Shown: positions 7,499 to 17,998 of the stretch, one piece after another
How the letters are laid out: the number at the start of each line of letters is the position of its first letter
Numbering within the stretch: the first letter of the stretch is position 1
Assembly: GCA_005882215.1 (NCBI GenBank)
Contig: VBCK01000117.1
Span: 1 to 64,000, forward strand
Origin: Betaproteobacteria bacterium
GTDB taxonomy: Bacteria; Pseudomonadota; Gammaproteobacteria; Burkholderiales; Burkholderiaceae_F
Direction of reading: 5' to 3'
Length of the DNA stretch: 64,000 bases
Position numbers and translations under genes: made by a program
The notes under the pieces: generated by a model
Databases searched by the model: none
Told to the model about the DNA's origin: nothing
What the model saw: only the letters and a program-made list of their open reading frames with translations

Positions 7499-9010
7499 AT
7501 GATGACCGAACTCGAATTCCGCGCCCTCGCCAGGGAGGGCTACAACCGGATCCCGCTGATTGCCGAAAGCTTCGCGGACCTGGACACGCCCCTCTCGCTG
7601 TACCTGAAGCTGGCGCGCAACCAGGGCCCCAGCGCCAACTCGTTCCTGCTCGAGTCGGTCGTCGGCGGCGAACGCTTCGGGCGCTATTCGTTCATCGGAC
7701 TGCCCGCCCGCACGGTGTTGCGGGCAACGATCGGTGACGGCGATGCGCGCGGCCATCGCACCGAAGTCATCACCGACGAACGGGTGGTCGAGGAAGATCG
7801 CGGCGACCCGCTGGCATTCATCGAGCGCTACGCAGCGCGCTTCAAAGTCGCGCTGCGGCCCGGATTGCCGCGCTTTTGCGGGGGCCTGGCGGGCTACTTC
7901 GGCTACGACACCGTGCGACTGATCGAGAAGACGCTGGCGCACACCAAACCCGATGACCTGGGCCTGCCCGACATCCACCTGATCCTGACCGAGGAGCTGG
8001 CGGTCATCGACAACCTGACCGGACGCGCCTACCTGATCGTGTACGCCGACGCGTCGCAGCCGGAAGGATATTCGCGCGCGCGCGAACGGCTGCGCGATCT
8101 GCGGGCCCGCCTTTCCCGGCACGTGGAGCCCCCGCACACGCGCGCCAGCGTGCGCCGGCCCGAGCACCGCGAATTTGCGCGCGACCAGTACCTGGCCGCG
8201 GTACGGCGCGCCAAGCAGTACATCGAAGCGGGTGACATTTTCCAGGTCCAGATCGGCCAGCGGATCAGCAAGCAGTTTGCCGATGCGCCGCTGTCGCTGT
8301 ACCGCGCGCTGCGGACCCTGAACCCGTCCCCCTACATGTACTACTACGACCTGGGCGATGCGTACGTGGTGGGTGCCTCGCCTGAGATCCTGGTGCGCGC
8401 CGAAACGCGCCAGAGCGAACGCGTGGTCGCGATCCGTCCGCTGGCGGGCACGCGCCCGCGCGGCGGCACGCTCGAGCAGGACGCGGCGCTGGCGGAAGAG
8501 TTGCTGGCGGACCCGAAAGAGCGCGCCGAACACCTGATGCTGATCGACCTGGCGCGCAACGACATCGGCCGGATCGCACGCACCGGCACGGTCAAGGTGA
8601 GCGAGCAGATGGTGATCGAGCGCTATTCGCACGTGATGCATCTGGTCAGCCACGTCGAGGGCACGTTGCGCCCCGGAATGGGCAATTTCGATGTGCTGCG
8701 TGCCACCTTTCCGGCCGGCACGCTGTCGGGAACGCCCAAGGTGCGCGCGATGGAGATCATCGACGAGCTGGAACCTGTGAAGCGCGGAATCTACGGCGGC
8801 GCGGTCGGCTACCTGAGCTTCGCCGGCGACATGGACCTGGCGATCGCGATCCGCACCGGCATCGTCAAGGGCAACGTGTTGTACACGCAGGCCGCCGCCG
8901 GCATCGTGGCCGACTCGGTGCCCGAGTCGGAGTGGCGGGAGACCGAGGCCAAGGCGCGCGCGGTACTGCGCGCCGCCGAGCAGGTGGAGGACGGGTTCGA
9001 GTCCGAGTAG
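7499..9010 (+). CDS. trpE: anthranilate synthase component I
   Basis: A 503-residue chorismate-using enzyme that makes anthranilate with ammonia or glutamine-derived ammonia from TrpG; first step of tryptophan synthesis. The chorismate-binding domain is seen in IRPLAGTRPRGG, ADPKERAEHLMLIDLARNDIGR, TFPAGTLSGTPKVRAMEIIDELEP and YTQAAAGIVADSVPESEW. The length is usual. It starts 15 bp after the gph stop. Its normal downstream partner trpG is not adjacent: an 8.4-kb segment lies between them. Confidence 0.96.
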   Translation: MMTELEFRALAREGYNRIPLIAESFADLDTPLSLYLKLARNQGPSANSFLLESVVGGERFGRYSFIGLPARTVLRATIGDGDARGHRTEVITDERVVEEDRGDPLAFIERYAARFKVALRPGLPRFCGGLAGYFGYDTVRLIEKTLAHTKPDDLGLPDIHLILTEELAVIDNLTGRAYLIVYADASQPEGYSRARERLRDLRARLSRHVEPPHTRASVRRPEHREFARDQYLAAVRRAKQYIEAGDIFQVQIGQRISKQFADAPLSLYRALRTLNPSPYMYYYDLGDAYVVGASPEILVRAETRQSERVVAIRPLAGTRPRGGTLEQDAALAEELLADPKERAEHLMLIDLARNDIGRIARTGTVKVSEQMVIERYSHVMHLVSHVEGTLRPGMGNFDVLRATFPAGTLSGTPKVRAMEIIDELEPVKRGIYGGAVGYLSFAGDMDLAIAIRTGIVKGNVLYTQAAAGIVADSVPESEWRETEAKARAVLRAAEQVEDGFESE

Positions 9011-9162
9011 CCGGCTAAGCGGTAGCCGCAAATCCCTGTCGGGTTTGAGCGTCAAATTGCGTCTTGCCCTCGAGGCCCTCGAAGGGCGTCGGGCCGAGCT
9101 GGGCGGCGCGCCGGCGACCTGACCAGGTGCCGGAGGCGGAGCGACAGGGAAAGGGCAGGACA

Positions 9163-10314
9163 GTGATTGATTTTCGCGAAGTGCGGCTGCGATCGAATCC
9201 GCGCTTTCGCCTGGTACCGTTCGACCGGCTTGCGCCATCGGACCTGGATGCGTTCCGGAGTCTGAGCGAGGATCCGGACTTCTTCGGAATCCTCGTTCCA
9301 CCGGAAGGCTCCGTTCTGCCGGTCAAATCCGTTTCGCGCGACGCGGCGCTGCTGTACCTCTCGCTGCGAAAGCCTGCCTGCCTGCCACACCTCCTGGAGA
9401 ACCTGTTCGGTGGCGACGTGGGCGAGCGGGTTCGCACGTTGATCCTGGATGGCGTGTTCGAGATCGAACAGTCCGGGAATTTCGTGTCGGGCGCAGCCGC
9501 ATTAGCGCCGTTTACCTATTCGGAGACTGCCGAACCCACCTCGCTTCTGGCCCAGCTCTGCGAGGACGCGATCAGGTACGCCGCCGCGCTGGAGCTGCTG
9601 CCAGTGCACGACCTGGCGTTGCGGCTGTATCTTTTCAACACTGCGCCGGGCGAGCCGGCGATGCATCGGCGCTTCTGCGACGACGACCGGCTGCTCGGGT
9701 TTGTGCTCGCTGACGATGCGATCGCCCGCTTGTTGCGCTCGCGCTGGCGGCGCGAAACGATCGGCGACTCCTGGCTTGCCTGGAACGGCGAGGCCTCGGC
9801 GAGGGCGCCGGAATACAAGCTGTATGTCAGTCCGACGCTGGACCATATGCCCGCAGTCTTCGAACTCGCGGTCGACGCCTTCGCAAAGGCTCAGTGCACG
9901 CACTTCAAGCTGGGGCGGGGAGCGTTCGGTCTGCTGCGTCCCGACAAGCTGGTCGCTTATTTTTCCGACCTGGACTCGCTGCAGCAGGCGGCAGAGTTGA
10001 TTCGCAGGTCCGCGGCGGGTGCAGTAGCGCAGGGGGTGCCGTTCACCGCCCCGATCGATTCCGATGGACTGTTGTCCTGGGGCATGGATCCGCCCCGATT
10101 CGAGCAGGTTTTGCAGTCGCAACAATTGCAGAGTTGGCGCCAGTGGCTCACCGGCCGGATTGCTGTCTACGTGCTCGCGGGCAGGGAAGCCGGCACCGAC
10201 GTTCATTCCTTCATCCGCAACCGGATCGAACTGGACGGAGTCGACCCGGTGTCCTGGACCCCGAACCTGGCAATCTGGCGTGGACCGGTCGGAACCGAGC
10301 AGGGGGCGGCTTGA
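9163..10314 (+). CDS. putative stand-alone phosphoSer/Thr lyase-like protein of a lanthionine synthetase system
   Basis: A 383-residue protein. Residues about 218-307 resemble the lyase domain that opens class III/IV lanthipeptide synthetases: YKLYVSPTLD (218-227) parallels the family's WKIHVSAT-type strand, then HFKLGR (247-252), RPDK (259-262), a YF strand, PFTAPIDSDGLLSWG (293-307). Such lyases remove phosphate from pSer/pThr to leave dehydroamino acids. A HopA1-type protein of class V lanthipeptide loci is an alternative. Residues about 10-105 look like a small winged-helix module. The GTG start at 9163 has AAGGG eight bases upstream; an in-frame TTG at 9064 adds an unrelated tail. Its stop overlaps the next gene's start. 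The role is inferred from pattern and neighbour, not from an alignment. Confidence 0.6.
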   Translation: MIDFREVRLRSNPRFRLVPFDRLAPSDLDAFRSLSEDPDFFGILVPPEGSVLPVKSVSRDAALLYLSLRKPACLPHLLENLFGGDVGERVRTLILDGVFEIEQSGNFVSGAAALAPFTYSETAEPTSLLAQLCEDAIRYAAALELLPVHDLALRLYLFNTAPGEPAMHRRFCDDDRLLGFVLADDAIARLLRSRWRRETIGDSWLAWNGEASARAPEYKLYVSPTLDHMPAVFELAVDAFAKAQCTHFKLGRGAFGLLRPDKLVAYFSDLDSLQQAAELIRRSAAGAVAQGVPFTAPIDSDGLLSWGMDPPRFEQVLQSQQLQSWRQWLTGRIAVYVLAGREAGTDVHSFIRNRIELDGVDPVSWTPNLAIWRGPVGTEQGAA

Positions 10315-12686
10315 GTATCGACTGCGAACTTGTGCTTTCGCCGGACGTGCGCATCGAACCGGTCCTGGAGCTCTCGCCCGACCTGCGAGCGAAGATCGAT
10401 GCGTCTGACCAGGACTTCACAGTGACACGCCGGCGCGCACGCGCCACCTCGCGCGTGGTGGACAAGGACAGCGCCGAACTGTTGCAGAAATTTCGCGTGC
10501 CGACCCGCATCGTCGATGCTGTCCTGTCGTTCGCCGGCGAGCGGGGACTCCATCCGGAGTCGACTCTCGAGCAGGCCTACCCGGTGCTTGGCCGGCTGTA
10601 CCGAAGCCGGTTCCTGGTGCCCGCGGACAGCGACGCGGCCAGACCCATCGAAGGGCAACTCGAACCCGGGGACGTCGTCGATGGGTTTCGACTGATCCGT
10701 TGCATCCAAATCTTCGAAGACAACGAAGTGTTCGTGGCGCGAGATGACGCCGGCCGCTATGCGGCAGTGAAGTTTTACCGAGAGCCAAGTCCGGACCAGA
10801 TCGCCATGCTTCAGGGCGAAGCGGGCCTGATGGGGCGCGCCGGCGGAGCCCGCGCCCCGCAGGTGCTCGGCCTGACACAGGTTGGTTCCGGCCTCGCGCT
10901 GGCGGCTGAGTGGGTGTTCGGGGACGACGCGCTGGCCGCGGCCGAATCGCTGCGCGGCCGGCAGGGCTCTCGAAGCGATCACCCATTGCTCGCGCTGTGC
11001 GCTGAGGTCGCTGCCGCGTTCGCCGACGTTCACGAGTCGGGTCTGCTGCATGGCGACGTTCACCCTCGCAACGTGCTGGTCGAGAAGTCGGGAACGGTCC
11101 GGCTGATCGATTTCGGGCTGGCGCGCGAAATCGACGTGCCCAGCGACGGGAATCTGCGCGGCGGCGTCCCTTTCTATTTCGACCCCGAGTTTGCCCGAGC
11201 GCAGCGCGACCAGGGGGTCGTGGCCGCCAGTTGCTTGGCAGAACAGTACTCGGTGGCCGCTCTGATCTACCAGATGTGGACCGGCGTGCATTACCTGGAC
11301 TGGAGCCTTGAACGCGAAGCCATGCTGCGCCAGATCGTCGAGGCCGAACCCGTCCCGTTCCAGGCGCGCCGCGTGCCGCCTTGGCCTGAGCTGGAGCAGA
11401 TCCTGCGCCGGGCGTTGCACAAGGATCCCGGGCAGCGCTTTCCGGACCTGCGCGCCCTGACCCAGGCGTTAAGCGCCCTACTGCCGCAGGCGCAGGAGCG
11501 CGACAGGCAGGCCGCATCCGTGTACCGCGAACCGGCACGGGCTGCCGACTTGGTCGAGCGGGCGCTGAAGCGCTATCGGCTAGGGGGTGAGGCGCTGCGC
11601 GAAGGGCTGCCCGATGCCCCACGAGCTTCGATCAACTACGGCGCCGGCGGCATCGCGTACGCGCTGCTGCGGATCGCGCAGCGGCGCCAAGATGCGAGAC
11701 GGTTGGCTCTGGCTGATCTCTGGTCCCAGAAGGCCTACGCGCTAGCGACCTCGGACGATGCCTTTTACAGCGCCGCGCTGCAGATCGATCGAAACTCGGT
11801 GGGCGAACGTTCGCTGTTTCATTCGGCCGCGGGCTTGCATGGCGTGCGGGCCCTGGTGTCGGCCGCGCAGCGCGATGCGGTAACCGCCAATCGAGCGCTG
11901 CGCGCCTTTGTCCAGCATTCGCTGGGACCGAATGACAGCGTCGATCGAGCTTCGCGACTGGATGCCGTAATTGGCCGGGCGAGCCTTCTGCTCGGGTGCT
12001 CCGAGCTGATCGAGACGATCCCGCAATCGCGGGAATTCGACCTGGCGGGCATTCGTGCGCGGGGCGACGAGCTTGCCACCGAGGTTCTCGGCTTTCTCGA
12101 GTCCAGCACGATCGAATCCTCGGAACACTTGGCGACGCTGGGCGTCGCGCACGGCTGGGGCGGACTGGCCTTCGGCCTGCTGCGTTGGGCGCGCGCCACG
12201 GGGCGCGACCCCGCGGCTTCGGTGCGGTTGCGGCTCGACGAGCTGGCGACGCTGGCCGAACCGCACGGCGTGGGAGCGCGCTGGCCGGTTCAGTGCGGCG
12301 GATCCACGTTTCTGGATGGATGGTGCAACGGTGCGGCCGGATTCGCGATGCTGTACGCACTGGCCTCCCGGATATTGAGCGAGCCGCGCTTCGCGGAGCT
12401 CGCGGAGCGCGCCGCGATCAGCGCATGGAACAGCGAGATCCCTCTCGGCACGCTGTGTTGCGGTCAAGGCGGCATAGCCTATGGATTGCTGGCTGTTTAT
12501 CGCATCACGGGCTCGGAGCACTGGCTGCAGCGCGCCCGCGCGTGTTTGCGGCGGGCTGCGGCCGACCGCTCGCCTCACTTTCTCCCGGACGCGCTGTACA
12601 AGGGCGCCGTCGGCCTCGCGCTGTTGGCCGAGGAGCTGCAATCGCCCGAAACGGCGGCGATGCCACTGTTCGAGCCGGGCGCCTGA
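10311..12686 (+). CDS. protein kinase-LanC fusion, putative lanthionine synthetase subunit
   Basis: A 791-residue fusion. The N-terminus (about 35-105) is a small helical/winged-helix-like module. The kinase domain (about 125-390) has VK154, catalytic HGDVHPRN (247-254, D249 and N254) and metal-binding DFG (267-269), so it looks active. The LanC-like cyclase (about 430-775) has the repeated glycine motifs of the alpha-toroid (NYGAGGIAY, VAHGWGGLAFG) and zinc ligands C672 in WCNG and C716/C717 in LCCGQGG. Three Cys replace the common Cys-Cys-His set. It would phosphorylate Ser/Thr and close thioether rings; the missing lyase step is offered by the preceding gene. The TTG start overlaps that gene's stop and follows AGGGGGCGG. 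The order kinase-cyclase resembles class III/IV synthetases lacking their lyase domain. Confidence 0.82.
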   Translation: MSIDCELVLSPDVRIEPVLELSPDLRAKIDASDQDFTVTRRRARATSRVVDKDSAELLQKFRVPTRIVDAVLSFAGERGLHPESTLEQAYPVLGRLYRSRFLVPADSDAARPIEGQLEPGDVVDGFRLIRCIQIFEDNEVFVARDDAGRYAAVKFYREPSPDQIAMLQGEAGLMGRAGGARAPQVLGLTQVGSGLALAAEWVFGDDALAAAESLRGRQGSRSDHPLLALCAEVAAAFADVHESGLLHGDVHPRNVLVEKSGTVRLIDFGLAREIDVPSDGNLRGGVPFYFDPEFARAQRDQGVVAASCLAEQYSVAALIYQMWTGVHYLDWSLEREAMLRQIVEAEPVPFQARRVPPWPELEQILRRALHKDPGQRFPDLRALTQALSALLPQAQERDRQAASVYREPARAADLVERALKRYRLGGEALREGLPDAPRASINYGAGGIAYALLRIAQRRQDARRLALADLWSQKAYALATSDDAFYSAALQIDRNSVGERSLFHSAAGLHGVRALVSAAQRDAVTANRALRAFVQHSLGPNDSVDRASRLDAVIGRASLLLGCSELIETIPQSREFDLAGIRARGDELATEVLGFLESSTIESSEHLATLGVAHGWGGLAFGLLRWARATGRDPAASVRLRLDELATLAEPHGVGARWPVQCGGSTFLDGWCNGAAGFAMLYALASRILSEPRFAELAERAAISAWNSEIPLGTLCCGQGGIAYGLLAVYRITGSEHWLQRARACLRRAAADRSPHFLPDALYKGAVGLALLAEELQSPETAAMPLFEPGA

Positions 12687-12797
12687 CGGTCGAGCCAGGC
12701 AGCCGTGAGGACGCGTGCCTTACCTGTCGGATCTGCGAGCAAATAGTCGTCTGAGTAGTCGCAAACACTCATATCAACATGCAACGGAGGCTGGGAA

Positions 12798-13175
12798 ATG
12801 GCGGATTTCAAGATCCACGATTTGACGGTCTTGCTCCAACCAGGATGGGCCGATCAGACGGTCGGGCAGCCTCCCACCCGATACCCGGTGTCGCTTGATC
12901 CGGGGCTTTGCGGAGGAAGCAACAAGCCGGATCTTTGCGGAGGAAGCAACAAGATCTGTCAGGCAAGCCAGTTGGTCGTGGATATCGCCTGTGTTTCCGT
13001 CGAAGAGTTGAAGGTTCTGAAAAAGCAGCTTGCGCAGGCGCTCGAAGTGGTGGCACGCCGCGAATTCGAGCTGCAGTCGGACGCCGGGGCGGTCGAGCCG
13101 ATGGAATCCGGAACGATCGATGCGCTGTCCGTAGCACTCAAGAGGATCCCAACCAAGAGGATCCCAACGAAGTAG
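12798..13175 (+). CDS. small Cys/Ser repeat protein, candidate substrate (precursor) of the lanthionine synthetase
   Basis: A 125-residue protein of unknown family, starting at ATG with GGAGG (12786-12790) seven bases upstream. It lies 111 bp after the kinase-LanC gene on the same strand. Residues 37-43 and 46-52 repeat LCGGSNK exactly, followed by ICQAS; Cys are at 38, 47, 54 and 65, with Ser at 41, 50, 57 and 67. After that comes a charged helical stretch (about 66-95) and a C-terminal tandem KRIPT KRIPT K. Cys/Ser spacing of this kind could form thioether rings, so I infer a lanthipeptide-type precursor. Unusually, the Cys/Ser part is central rather than C-terminal. It could instead be an unmodified partner protein. 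Confidence 0.6.
   Translation: MADFKIHDLTVLLQPGWADQTVGQPPTRYPVSLDPGLCGGSNKPDLCGGSNKICQASQLVVDIACVSVEELKVLKKQLAQALEVVARREFELQSDAGAVEPMESGTIDALSVALKRIPTKRIPTK
12906..12953 (+). repeat. two copies of a 21-bp repeat, 27 bp apart, in the candidate precursor
   Basis: Two identical 21-bp copies (12906-12926 and 12933-12953) encode LCGGSNK twice with a nine-residue period. The DNA identity, including third positions, points to recent duplication of the presumed core unit. Confidence 0.9.
13140..13169 (+). repeat. tandem 15-bp repeat at the end of the candidate precursor gene
   Basis: Two 15-bp units differing only at the last base encode KRIPT twice, followed by a final Lys codon and the stop. A second, independent internal duplication in the same short gene. 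Confidence 0.9.
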
Positions 13176-13256
13176 TCGTCGGCGAAGGCGCAATCGGGGG
13201 TCGGTCCGGCAAACTGCCGTCGTACCTTGCGGTTACCTGGCGATCCAGCCCGGTAA

Positions 13257-16200
13257 TCAGCCTCCTGCCAGTTCGTGCTGCCTCAGTTGCTGCTCCAGTT
13301 CGGTCCAGGGGCGCTTGTAAAAGGAACTGACCGCCGGCTGCTCGTTGAAGGCGCGCCGGGCCGCGTTGCGCATTTCGCGCGCAAGCGGCAGCTCTCCGGC
13401 CTGCAGTGCGCACAAGCCTGTGCGCGCGCGCAGCGCCGCGATTCCCGGACTGTTCGAGGCAAACTGGCCTTTGAACTCGTTCAATGCCGCCATCAGCCTG
13501 GCCAGACCCGCCTTCGGCTGCCCGGTGTTGCACTCGACGACGGCCTGCAGTCCAGCGAAACCGCTGGGGGGAAAGGTGACGATTATCAGCTCCTTGCGGC
13601 GCGTTTCGGGCACGCCGGCGACCCATTGATGGATCAGCCTGGCAGCGTCCTCAAATTGCTTCGATTCCACCTTGATCAGGACGTCCAGCGCGAGCGCCTC
13701 CCAATGCGGATCCCAGCGGGAACTGAGGACGAACGGTTGGCCCTCGCTGATCTGCGTCTTCACGTCCATCAATCGGCGCGCGGCCGACACCAGGTCTGCG
13801 GCCATGATCCGCGACTGGATCGCGTAAACCTCGGGGTCTAGAATCGCGTCCCTGCGTACGCCGCTGGCATGCAACGCGGCATGGCGAGCCCTGTAGATCT
13901 CATCCCACAGCCGGGTGGCCTCTTCGTGCTCGCCACGGTCGTCGGCCCATTGGGCGTAAAAGTACATCGCGCGGTACTTGGCTCCAAAAACCGGCGACCC
14001 TTCATCTTGATTGGATTGCTTTTCCACTAGCACCGGCAGCGCGCGGCGCATCAGCGGAGCGGCGCGCTCGACCTCCCCGTGCTGCCAATACGCGGTCCCG
14101 GCCACCAGGTCCGCGAACGCCCGCAATGTGGGGGGCACGTCCGAGCCTTTCCGGTCGAGGGCGGCAGCAATCTGCTCGATTCTGGGAATGCCGAAGTCCG
14201 GGAGGGCGCCGGTATCGTTCAGACGCTGGACCAGATACAACTCGAGCGATGCCGCTTCCAGGTCGTCCGGACCCGAGACCCGGCGCATGTCGGCCAGCAG
14301 CCGATCGAACATCGCACGGCCGGCACCGACTTCGCCGAACTGGATCAGATTTTGCGCGAAGAACTGCCGCTTCGCGATCGCTTCAGAGGAGAGCGCTCCA
14401 GTCAGATCTTGAGTCAATTTGACGGCGGCGTCGAATGTCGATTGGGCCGCCGCCGGATCCTTGCGATCCCACAGCAGTAAAGCGGCGCGATGCAGCAGGA
14501 TGTCCGCGAACACGGGGGAACGACGGTCGGTTACGGTCGAAAGGAGTTCTTCGGCCCGGTTCAGCTGATCGGACGCGAGGGCGAACTTGCCTCGGGCCAG
14601 CAACACGCGCGCCAAGGCGGTGTGTAACTCCGCGTGCTCCGATGCGGGCAGCGAACCGGCCTGGCGGATCGCCTGATTCAGCGTCTCTTCGGCCAGGTCG
14701 TTGCGCATTTCCTGCACCTGGGCACGCGCAAGAATCCGTAATGCCTGCACGCGCTGGCGGTCGTTGCCGGAGGTTGCGTTCAAGGCCTCCAGCTGACCGT
14801 TGACCATCTCGATTGCGTGCGAAGAGTCCCCAATGTCGGCAAAAATCGTCCCGGCAATTCCCATCATCTCGGCCCGGAGGGCAGGCCGTCCTTCGTAGCG
14901 GGCCTGGATGCGGCGTGCCCCGCGTTCGACCAGCGCGTCGGTCGGAAGCTGCCGCAGGTACAGCTTGTTCGGATCGTCCCCATGATTCAGGTCGAACAGC
15001 CCGATCACGAAATCGCGTATTTCGTCGGCCCGCTCCGCCTGCGCCTGGGCGCGCTGCGCCTCGTGCGTGGCGCGCTTGGCCTGCTCGACCGCCACGCCGA
15101 AGCCGATCAGCACCGCCACTAGCGCGGCCGACGCCGCCACCACGTACTCGCGATGGCGGCTGATGAAGCGACTGGCCCGGTACCAGCCACTGTCCGGACG
15201 CGCCAGCACCGGCTCGCCGTTCAGGTGGCGGTCCAGGTCGTCGATCAGCGCATCGACGGTCCGGTAGCGCGACTCCGGCTCCCGGCGCAGCGCCTTGGCC
15301 AGGATCGTGTCCAGGTCGCCGCGCAACTGCCGCTGGGTGGGCCTGGCCGCCACGCGGGAGCTCGCTAGCGGCGCCAGGTCCTCGGCGGCCGCCGCCTCCA
15401 GTTCCGTCAGCGAAGCGCCGGTGGCATGAAATGGGCGAGTCCTCGTCAGCATCTCGTACAGCAGCACGCCCAGCGAATAGACGTCCGCTGCCACTGTCAC
15501 TGGCTCGCCCCGGATCTGTTCGGGGGAGGCGTAGCCCGGTGTCAGCATCCGGCCGGCGGCCCCCGTCAACAGGGTCATTCCGTCCGCCTCATCGCTGAGC
15601 AGCTTCGCGATGCCGAAATCCAGCAGGTGAGCGGTCCCGTCGACGCCCACCAGCACGTTCGACGGCTTCAGGTCTCGATGCACGACCAGGTGGCGATGCG
15701 CATAGGCCACCGCACCGGCGACCTGCTTGAACAGCACCAGCCGCTCGCGCAGACTGAGCGAATGCTGGAGCACGTATTCGTCGATCGGCACGCCCTCGAC
15801 GTACTCCAGCGCCAGGTAGGGCCGACCTTGTTCGTCGGTGCCGGCGTCGTACAGGCGCGCGATATTCGGGTGTGCCAGCCGCGCCAGGATGTCGCGCTCG
15901 CGCGCCAGGCGCGCGTTCAGTTCGGGCACCCAGCTCACATGGGGCAACTTCAGCGCGACCGCGCGGTCGAGCCCACCGTCGACGCGCTGAGCCAGCCACA
16001 CGGACCCCATGCCGCCGACGCCGATCTGCCGCTCCAGGCGGTATGGGCCGATCCGCATGCCCTCCCGCTCGGTTGCCTGACTCTGAGCGGCGGCCCTGAG
16101 GTGACCGAGCCCCGGGCGCGTCAGGAACCGGTCGTCCGGCCGGTCCGCCTCGGCCAGCAGTTGCGCCAGCGTGTTGCGGTGCCCGGCGTCGGACCCGCCT

Positions 16201-16298
16201 AGGGAAGCAAGCCAGCGGCTGCGTTCGGACGGATCCAGCGCGAGCGCTTCGTCCAGCAGCCGGCTGAGCGTTCGGAGTTCCGCAGGACCGACAGCCAT
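13257..16298 (-). CDS. membrane-anchored Ser/Thr protein kinase with C-terminal helical repeats
   Basis: A 1013-residue Hanks-type kinase. A short N-terminal helical region (about 1-80) precedes the kinase domain (about 82-350) with GVGGMGSV, VALKLP, catalytic HRDLKPSN and DFGIAK, all intact. One transmembrane helix follows (about 385-405, AASAALVAVLIGFGVAV), then a long alpha-helical, TPR-like region to the end. The kinase is cytoplasmic, the repeat region likely extracytoplasmic. It lies 102 bp downstream of an ECF sigma factor gene on the same strand, a common pairing, so the kinase may act in the sigma factor's pathway. It converges on the candidate precursor gene, leaving 81 bp. Confidence 0.85.
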   Translation of the reverse strand: MAVGPAELRTLSRLLDEALALDPSERSRWLASLGGSDAGHRNTLAQLLAEADRPDDRFLTRPGLGHLRAAAQSQATEREGMRIGPYRLERQIGVGGMGSVWLAQRVDGGLDRAVALKLPHVSWVPELNARLARERDILARLAHPNIARLYDAGTDEQGRPYLALEYVEGVPIDEYVLQHSLSLRERLVLFKQVAGAVAYAHRHLVVHRDLKPSNVLVGVDGTAHLLDFGIAKLLSDEADGMTLLTGAAGRMLTPGYASPEQIRGEPVTVAADVYSLGVLLYEMLTRTRPFHATGASLTELEAAAAEDLAPLASSRVAARPTQRQLRGDLDTILAKALRREPESRYRTVDALIDDLDRHLNGEPVLARPDSGWYRASRFISRHREYVVAASAALVAVLIGFGVAVEQAKRATHEAQRAQAQAERADEIRDFVIGLFDLNHGDDPNKLYLRQLPTDALVERGARRIQARYEGRPALRAEMMGIAGTIFADIGDSSHAIEMVNGQLEALNATSGNDRQRVQALRILARAQVQEMRNDLAEETLNQAIRQAGSLPASEHAELHTALARVLLARGKFALASDQLNRAEELLSTVTDRRSPVFADILLHRAALLLWDRKDPAAAQSTFDAAVKLTQDLTGALSSEAIAKRQFFAQNLIQFGEVGAGRAMFDRLLADMRRVSGPDDLEAASLELYLVQRLNDTGALPDFGIPRIEQIAAALDRKGSDVPPTLRAFADLVAGTAYWQHGEVERAAPLMRRALPVLVEKQSNQDEGSPVFGAKYRAMYFYAQWADDRGEHEEATRLWDEIYRARHAALHASGVRRDAILDPEVYAIQSRIMAADLVSAARRLMDVKTQISEGQPFVLSSRWDPHWEALALDVLIKVESKQFEDAARLIHQWVAGVPETRRKELIIVTFPPSGFAGLQAVVECNTGQPKAGLARLMAALNEFKGQFASNSPGIAALRARTGLCALQAGELPLAREMRNAARRAFNEQPAVSSFYKRPWTELEQQLRQHELAGG

Positions 16299-16400
16299 CG
16301 ACGCGACGCGCTCTGCTCGTTAACCGTTAAGGACGCGAAGCGGGTCCGAAAAACGACACGCGTTCCTGGGAAGCGCTTCGTCTGATCGGAAGCAGCCGGC

Positions 16401-16958
16401 TCAGGGGCGCTGCAGCGCGGCCTTAAGCAAAAGGCGCGCCTTGTTCCAATCGCGCTGCACCGTGCGTTCCGTGACCCCCAGCGTTTCGGCGATCTCGGCC
16501 TCGGTGTAGCCGCCGTAGTAGCGCATTTCGACCAGCTGCGCGAGCCTCGGCTCGGCCTGTTCGAGCAGCAGCAGCGCCTCATGAACATCCAGGATCGCTT
16601 CTTCGCCGCTGGACAGGTGCTCGAGCAGCTGGGTCGACAGCGTCAACTCGGGTGCGCCGCCGCCCCTGCGCTGCGCAAGCCGCGCACGGGCCGTGTCGAC
16701 GATCACATTTCGCATCACCTGCGAGGCGAACGCGAAAAACGAACGTCGATCTTCGGAACGCAGCTCGGACGACTGGATGAAGCGGATATACGCTTCGTGC
16801 ACCAGCGCCGTCGTATCGAGCATTTCGCTGCGTCCGCCCTGGTACAGCCGAACGTGGGCGAGTTTCTTCAGTTCCCCGTATGCCAGCGCAAACAGAGCAT
16901 CACGAGCAACCTTGTCGCCGCCATTGACACGGCTCAGCAGCTCGGTGATCTGTCCCAT
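16401..16958 (-). CDS. ECF-type sigma factor of the TIGR02999 (HGG) group
   Basis: A 185-residue RNA polymerase sigma factor. Region 2 is recognised by YGELKKLAH, TTALVHEAYIRF and FFAFASQVMRNVIVDTAR; region 4 by RLAQLVEMRYYGGYTEAEIAETLGVTERTVQRDW, which ends with the DNA-recognition helix. This group is often encoded next to a Ser/Thr kinase with helical repeats, as here, and has no classical anti-sigma gene beside it. It is the first gene of a two-gene unit with the kinase. Target promoters are unknown; the neighbouring lanthionine genes are possible targets but nothing in the sequence proves it. Confidence 0.88.
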   Translation of the reverse strand: MGQITELLSRVNGGDKVARDALFALAYGELKKLAHVRLYQGGRSEMLDTTALVHEAYIRFIQSSELRSEDRRSFFAFASQVMRNVIVDTARARLAQRRGGGAPELTLSTQLLEHLSSGEEAILDVHEALLLLEQAEPRLAQLVEMRYYGGYTEAEIAETLGVTERTVQRDWNKARLLLKAALQRP

Positions 16959-17431
16959 CGGCTGCCCCCGAAGCCAGCAGATTGATTTTCAACGATATTT
17001 ATTTGACCTCGACAAGGCGTATTTGACCACGCCTGGCTGACGCGATGGTAGGCAGCTTACGCGCCGCCGATTCACCCGGCTCGGAATATTCCTATACGCA
17101 CCCGTGCACCGAGTTTTGGTACCGATGCCTTGAGATTTTATTGCAGTGCGATTATACGTTTATTTATATAACAATATGATTTTAACGTGAAAAATAGTCT
17201 TATTTATTAGACATCAGTTGTTATTCGCCATTCTATATTGCATCGCATCATGAGATAATCGCTGTCCGAAGGCGAGCATCCGGCGGTTTTGGTGGCGCAT
17301 CGCCACTCGGCCCCGAAGATCGATCCGAACCGATTCATCGTCGCGCACCCTGCGCGCGGCTCGCTCTCGAGCAAGATGCAGCGGGACTAAGAGCGGCCGC
17401 GGCGGCGGCCGCGATTCGGTAAGCTAGTCCG
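16959..17431. other. intergenic region with an AT-rich block
   Basis: No gene is visible. About 17120-17250 is strikingly AT-rich compared with the GC-rich surroundings and contains several TATA-like and TTATT runs that could act as promoters for the sigma factor (minus strand) or trpG (plus strand). Just before trpG (17392-17411) lies a GC-only palindrome made of two GCGGCCGC sites. This block marks the right edge of the segment that separates trpE from trpG. Confidence 0.6.
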
Positions 17432-17998
17432 ATGCTGCTGATGATCGACAACTACGACAGCTTTACCTACAACCTGGTGCAGTACTTCGGCGAGCTCGGT
17501 GAGGACGTTCGGGTCTGCCGAAACGATGAGATCAGCGTAGGCGCGATCGCCGAGCTCGCGCCCGCACGCATCTGCATTTCTCCCGGCCCCTGCACGCCGA
17601 ACGAGGCCGGGGTGACCTTGGCGCTGATCGAGCGGTTCGCCGGCTCGATCCCGATTCTGGGCGTGTGCCTGGGGCACCAGGCGATCGGACAGGCCTTCGG
17701 CGGACACGTGATCCGTGCCAAGTCGCTGATGCACGGGAAGACGTCCGCGATCGAGCACAGCGGCGTCGGCGTGTTCGCCGGCCTGCCGAACCCGTTCACC
17801 GCCACTCGCTACCATTCGCTGGCCGTGCGGCGCGAAACGCTGCCCGATTGCCTGGAGGTCAGCGCCTGGACCGCGGACGGCGAGATCATGGGGCTGCGCC
17901 ATAAGTCGCTGCCGGTCGAGGGGGTACAGTTTCATCCGGAGTCCATTGCGACCGAGAACGGACACGATCTGCTGCGCAACTTCCTGACCCGCCACTGA
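17432..17998 (+). CDS. trpG: anthranilate synthase component II (glutamine amidotransferase)
   Basis: A 188-residue class I glutamine amidotransferase that supplies ammonia to TrpE. The nucleophile is C79 in [10 protein letters not shown], the PGPCTP loop is upstream, and the His/Glu of the triad are in GVQFHPES. It is the first gene of trpGDC. In related bacteria trpG directly follows trpE; here it is 8.4 kb away, so it must have its own promoter or depend on a long transcript. It may also serve folate synthesis as PabA, as in many bacteria. Confidence 0.95.

Follow-up and report, generated by a model that had tools for sequence, protein, structure and literature searches.

Class III and IV lanthipeptide enzymes are three-domain fusions of lyase, kinase and cyclase, and the synthetases of classes II to V have no identifiable RRE, the recognition element of ribosomally synthesized and post-translationally modified peptides (RiPPs) (PMC10604976). 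In class VI, which has been described from Streptococcus only, one protein carries a kinase domain together with truncated lyase and cyclase domains (PMC10676316). Class V, as in lexapeptide and cacaoidin, has LanK, LanY and LanX or a separate cyclase. Here we describe a locus in contig VBCK01000117.1 of a Betaproteobacteria bacterium, the first 64,000 nucleotides of which are referred to as the window, where a lyase gene, a kinase-LanC synthetase gene and a precursor open reading frame (ORF) follow one another in that order as a three-gene cassette on the + strand. The cassette has the elements by which lanthipeptide loci are recognized, a gene-encoded precursor beside a dehydratase and a LanC-type cyclase, and we consider it quite probable that this self-contained cassette makes a lanthipeptide-type RiPP with lanthionine bridges and that the ORF encodes its precursor, in which the core is central.

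The precursor gene (12798..13175, + strand) encodes 125 residues from an ATG start with a GGAGG ribosome-binding site (12786..12790) 7 nt to its 5’ side. Pfam, PHROGs and NCBIfam searches with the protein return nothing above noise, and scans for consensus promoters and terminators give no score beyond that of shuffled sequence, but a profile built from the relatives without the window precursor scores it at 26.4 bits, where the best of 1000 shuffles reaches 7.8. An antisense ORF at 12774-13193 was set aside because homology and the ribosome-binding site favor the + strand. The protein begins with a recognition motif identified from alignments, MADFKIHDLTVLLQP (12798..12842), which would bind an RRE, and FKIHDLTVLLQP at this terminus is a conserved family motif. 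The Cys/Ser-rich core follows at residues 31-67 (12888..12998), as judged from the sequence and from Cys-first spacing statistics, and contains CGGS, CGGS and CQAS and all four Cys. The original prediction had singled out this ORF for LCGGSNK repeats with a nine-residue period, with Cys at 38, 47, 54 and 65 and Ser at 41, 50, 57 and 67, and all of this is borne out: two tandem 27-nt units (12900..12953) encode P[GD]LCGGSNK. It had also taken the DNA repeats to be identical, which is true of the LCGGSNK codons but not of the full units (12900-12926 and 12927-12953), which agree at 25 of 27 bases (93%), with one G/D change ahead of LCGGSNK. An exact seven-residue repeat appeared in none of 5000 shuffles of the protein, the best of which reached six residues, once. 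The tail (12999..13172) is composed of an amphipathic helix, EELKVLKKQLAQALEVV, a degenerate second helix and the KRIPT pair; all four Cys lie within residues 38-65 and the final 60 residues are Cys-free, so that the Cys/Ser part is central and followed by a helical tail, as had been proposed. The predicted KRIPT repeat is an exact 15-nt tandem pair (CAAGAGGATCCCAAC, 13139-13168), though it is not conserved among relatives.

The kinase-LanC gene suspected in the neighborhood is real, and lies upstream of the precursor (10311..12686, + strand) as a synthetase of 791 residues, with a TTG start that overlaps the lyase stop. Pfam, a structure model and conserved residues divide it into an RRE (residues 1-106), a Ser/Thr kinase (approximately 142-377; PF00069, E 2.5e-16) and a zinc LanC cyclase (approximately 440-785; PF05147, E 2.2e-24). 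The first 115 residues are modelled with an RRE-like fold resembling TigE, TbiB1, PqqD and MccB at Z 9-10 (TigE 10.4, the lasso RRE TbiB1 10.3, PqqD 5sxy 9.9), and the Pfam PqqD match is weak, being found in 3 of 29 members. Kinase residues K154, D249, N254 and D267 are the same in all 32 synthetase sequences, and the zinc ligands C672, C716 and C717 (C/C/C) are present in 31 of the 31 that reach that region, within WCNG or WCHG and CCG motifs. The kinase fits PF00069 best (the APH match is just E 1.7e-6) and is fused to the zinc LanC, which distinguishes it from class V, where an APH-type LanK and the cyclase are separate. A CCG zinc motif is also found in ProcM-type class II LanM enzymes, which share the hypervariable cores, but there is no LanM dehydratase domain here and the dehydration enzymes are different ones; this Cys-Cys-Gly motif has been linked to substrate tolerance (PMC12328550).

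The gene ahead of the synthetase (9163..10314, + strand, GTG start, 383 residues) is, on its modelled structure, a HopA1/LanY-like phosphoSer/Thr lyase that stands apart as a class V-type LanY; neither it nor the conserved N-terminal motif of the precursor figured in the original prediction. The identity is based on fold because fold comparison alone recognized it: the sequence has no Pfam or PHROG match, a single-sequence PDB search was empty, profile searches gave chance matches only, and the Pfam HopA1 match is weak across the family (4 of 30 members, best E 0.007). The AlphaFold model, with a predicted local distance difference test score (pLDDT) of 90, matches best (Foldseek, VIA) HopA1 (4rsx, Z 16.3) and the lexapeptide lyase LxmY (9dk3_B, Z 16.1), followed by the lyase domains of CuvL and ThurKC and by SpvC/OspF, which places a HopA1/LanY/OspF-type lyase at residues ~120-372 behind an RRE-like domain at ~1-112. 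Residues K219, K249, R259 and Y266 are invariant in 30 lyase sequences and spaced 30-10-7, and we pair them by motif and spacing with R187, K219, R229 and Y236 of CaoY, which occur in identical order at 32-10-7; mutation of CaoY R187, K219 or R229 impaired elimination (PMC9486802). The separate HopA1-like lyase and its K/R/Y spacing thus resemble class V, but there is a Lys rather than Arg187 at the enolate position. It is probable that each of the two enzymes has an RRE, since the lyase N-terminus matches the synthetase domain by profile (hhalign, 93%, E 2.8e-7) and its residues 6-108, within the whole-lyase model, align in fold with the N-terminal part of TigE (Z 7.9). Apparent RREs on both enzymes and a central rather than C-terminal core are further differences from class V.

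The pair of enzymes is widely distributed. Relatives of the lyase found by tblastn on Paenibacillus and Cupriavidus plasmids adjoin or lie close to a kinase-LanC gene, and a scan of ~85,000 genomes with the aligned lyases gave 29 loci in Acidobacteriota, Vulcanimicrobiota (Eremiobacterota), Actinomycetota, Pseudomonadota, Bacteroidota, Nitrospirota, Gemmatimonadota, Verrucomicrobiota and Elusimicrobiota, plus a metagenome-assembled genome (MAG) of a Nitrososphaerales archaeon. A kinase-LanC gene is present in all 29, directly 3’ of the lyase and on the same strand in 28 and convergent in a Cupriavidus locus (L017); it is cut by the contig end in L022 and L026 and occupies more than one frame in L013, L014 and L028. 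Overall there are about 35 loci in some ten phyla, and in those listed, the window included, the lyase is always encoded by its own gene apart from the kinase-cyclase. Amaricoccus macauensis, Bailinhaonella thermotolerans and Micromonospora halophytica are among the carriers in culture. Closer to the window, the 67 genomes searched from its own taxonomic family have no precursor relative besides the single copy in the window genome (one match at E 0.06, which fell within a long ORF, was disregarded) and no other lyase, and a single-sequence query did not find the lyase in a sample of the class. There were likewise no tblastn matches of the precursor to plasmids or of the synthetase to phages.

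Nearly every complete locus has a precursor of the same anatomy, with an N-terminal motif (consensus F-x-x-K-D-L-M-[VI]-x-[VI]), a variable Cys/Ser/Thr core, and a Cys-free C-terminal helix (LxxLKxQLxxALxEV) that is often followed by a second. A second subtype, FxAxxLRVQLPCG, corresponds to one clade of the synthetase tree (Cupriavidus, Micromonospora, Catellatospora, Nitrospira; support 99/99). A precursor profile matched 19 of 20 carrier genomes, whose own precursors it included, in each case at the cassette and with two tandem copies in G452; in 347 Acidobacteriota genomes, five of which carry the lyase, there were two real matches, both lyase-linked, and two coiled-coil false ones. The two weak lyase-less matches, in G535 and G620, were dismissed by eye as lipoprotein-like and histidine-kinase-like ORFs. 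The original prediction held that homologs with the tail but no Cys, or homologs away from any LanC gene, would speak against a core; no Cys-less, tail-only homolog was seen, the tail and core Cys occur together in every relative found, and the profile matches in these 20 and 347 genomes are lyase-linked save for the two weak coiled-coil ones.

The cores also vary in unit number beside kinase-LanC genes, which the same prediction had put forward as a check. Between conserved flanks, the acidobacterial precursor at L066:4716-5270 has seven CYASGG units, differing at silent sites, and those at L006 and L007 have none, which makes L066 a good model for unit-number evolution. L068 has six CTDCT..FS[IL]CG-type units and its relative L024 none, and the ten C[KRE][RW]TN units of L027 differ from one another at many silent positions. 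In 25 precursors, Ser or Thr is found at +3/+4 of core Cys in 180 of 229 cases (79 expected, standard deviation 7), but at -3/-4 in 81, against 79 expected by chance; the Cys-first excess persists when the most repeat-rich precursors are removed (109 versus 47). Small rings with Cys at the N-terminal side are therefore predicted, and the window precursor has three such Cys-first pairs, the two CGGS and CQAS, for which the predicted rings are C38-S41, C47-S50 and C54-S57.

Gene order, domain folds, catalytic residues, precursor anatomy, core hypervariability with unit copy-number change, and Cys-first spacing all come from computation. From them we infer the dehydration and cyclization chemistry, the binding of precursor segments to domains, the ring topology, any later proteolysis or export, and the biological role. 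We propose that the N-terminal strand motif of the precursor would dock on the PqqD-like RRE domains with which the lyase and the kinase-cyclase both begin, and that the C-terminal amphipathic helix would act as a follower keeping the substrate bound to the two enzymes. The kinase would then phosphorylate core Ser and Thr, the HopA1/LanY-like lyase would eliminate phosphate to give dehydroalanine or dehydrobutyrine, and the zinc LanC would add each Cys to the dehydro residue three or four positions C-terminal, yielding small rings with Cys N-terminal at CGGS, CGGS and CQAS. The helix has a putative role as a follower needed for modification. The suggestion of a core with a follower peptide survives as far as a central core with a conserved C-terminal helix, but not as a pure core-plus-follower, because an N-terminal recognition motif is also present. 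Recognition sequences C-terminal to the core occur in bottromycin-type precursors, which resemble this one in that respect, but no kinase, lyase or LanC is involved there and the N-terminal motif is additional here. In class III, the helical leader is bound between kinase and lyase of ThurKC (PMC10604976), and kinase-lyase cooperation and an amphipathic recognition helix in the substrate are points of likeness; here, however, the cyclase has the zinc ligands that the LanKC cyclase lacks, the lyase is separate, RREs are present, and the helix lies on the C-terminal side of the core. Class VI LanKCb of streptococci likewise departs from the LanKC layout, with reported four-residue rings, but here a full-length lyase has its own gene and the zinc LanC is complete.

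Several points weigh against this interpretation. The loci were located through the lyase, and co-occurrence is hence partly ascertained; L069 and L070 yielded no precursor, and L004, L029 and L032 have no clean N-terminal motif. SpvC His106 would correspond to Tyr221 of the lyase, which is invariant in the family. Among about 30 neighboring genes tested in some 12 loci there is no clear dedicated exporter or leader protease; an FtsX permease and an HlyD protein lie near L030, and peptidases a few kb from L024 and L034. The lack of an exporter or protease bears on a different outcome for the same enzymes, that the tail and N-terminal motif are never removed and the product is a lanthionine-stapled cellular or surface protein that its helical tail oligomerizes or anchors. 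The original prediction had likewise allowed for a modified structural protein. Coiled-coil-like tails of up to 80 residues in relatives, repeat-built cores of 150 residues as in L027, and isolated cassettes whose chromosomal surroundings differ from locus to locus (trpE, gcvP and others, with mutually unrelated neighbors in about 12 loci) and which have no consistently linked exporter or protease would suit such a product, although unlinked proteases and exporters occur for other RiPPs and the tail sequence (LxxLKxQLxxALxEV) shows the conservation expected of a recognition element; we regard an uncleaved product as unlikely, if by no means negligible. Only tentatively would we extend it to a class of lanthionine biosynthesis in its own right, present in many phyla and possibly an archaeon, in which two RRE-bearing enzymes place Cys-first rings along a mid-protein repeat segment and the product is an uncleaved, thioether-stapled functional protein rather than a secreted peptide.

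Much harder to maintain is the view that this is class III or IV as usual, the synthetase being divergent and the tail incidental. Kinase and LanC are common to both, and the best NCBIfam match of the synthetase is class IV LanL (NF038150), in which a kinase likewise precedes a zinc LanC and the phosphorylation-elimination logic is the same. However, the synthetase scores 135.1 bits against a cut-off of 650 for LanL and 65 against 575 for another NCBIfam family, its zinc motif is CCG rather than the CHG of LanL, it has an N-terminal RRE and no fused lyase, which is in a separate gene, and the core is central with a tail conserved across phyla; we consider this explanation very improbable. The least credible proposal is that the substrate of the enzymes is a different one, encoded elsewhere, and that the ORF arose by chance or specifies a small Cys protein with no connection to them, as the leave-one-out profile match, the good ribosome-binding site, the Cys-first spacing and the like anatomy of the precursors that accompany the pair in almost all complete loci stand against the single genomic copy without relatives in its own family and a position downstream of the enzymes in the window, where most relatives have the precursor upstream of the lyase.

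In the same-genus genome G066, trpE, an ECF sigma gene and trpG are close together, and in the window approximately 7.4 kb more lies between trpE and the ECF sigma gene (9010-17432), containing the cassette and a Ser/Thr kinase-TPR gene (13257-16298, - strand) that is within the segment absent from G066.

Some related loci have unusual arrangements. In Cupriavidus, an RRE-like domain is fused to a 2-oxoglutarate-Fe(II) oxygenase between the lyase and a convergent kinase-LanC gene (L005:10152-11057 and L017:9152-10057), and this N-terminal domain is the same as that on the lyase and synthetase; L005 also has a full LanB directly upstream of the precursor. A Paenibacillus peoriae plasmid precursor (L004:8011-8760) alternates three near-identical cores (NDCGITCLASCG) with four recognition helices, i.e. 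a gene that, from its sequence, would give several products or one polymer. Two tandem precursor genes in Elusimicrobia (L073:2151-2865) have like flanks and differing numbers of CGNT-type units. In a verrucomicrobial precursor (L030:7425-7860), an in-frame stop separates core from tail relative to L008, and the two may be separate peptides or the gene may have decayed. The Nitrososphaerales MAG encodes a two-part precursor (L019:7223-7957) with two F-[KR]-I-R-D-L-M-I motifs and a Cys-free first half, which may point either to a lanthipeptide from an archaeon or to faulty binning.

The split, RRE-bearing layout of this cassette is apparently new and undescribed: we found no description of it in the open-access literature, the range of our search, which left subscription papers outside and does not establish priority. 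The family departs both from the rule that class II to V synthetases are without an identifiable RRE and from the rule that class III and IV enzymes are fusions, and it spans some ten phyla, many of which are not among the usual producers. With its two enzymes, the system copes with many repeat units and a mid-protein core, and a consistent ring direction is predicted for it. Genome-mining rules that assume C-terminal cores would overlook such precursors.
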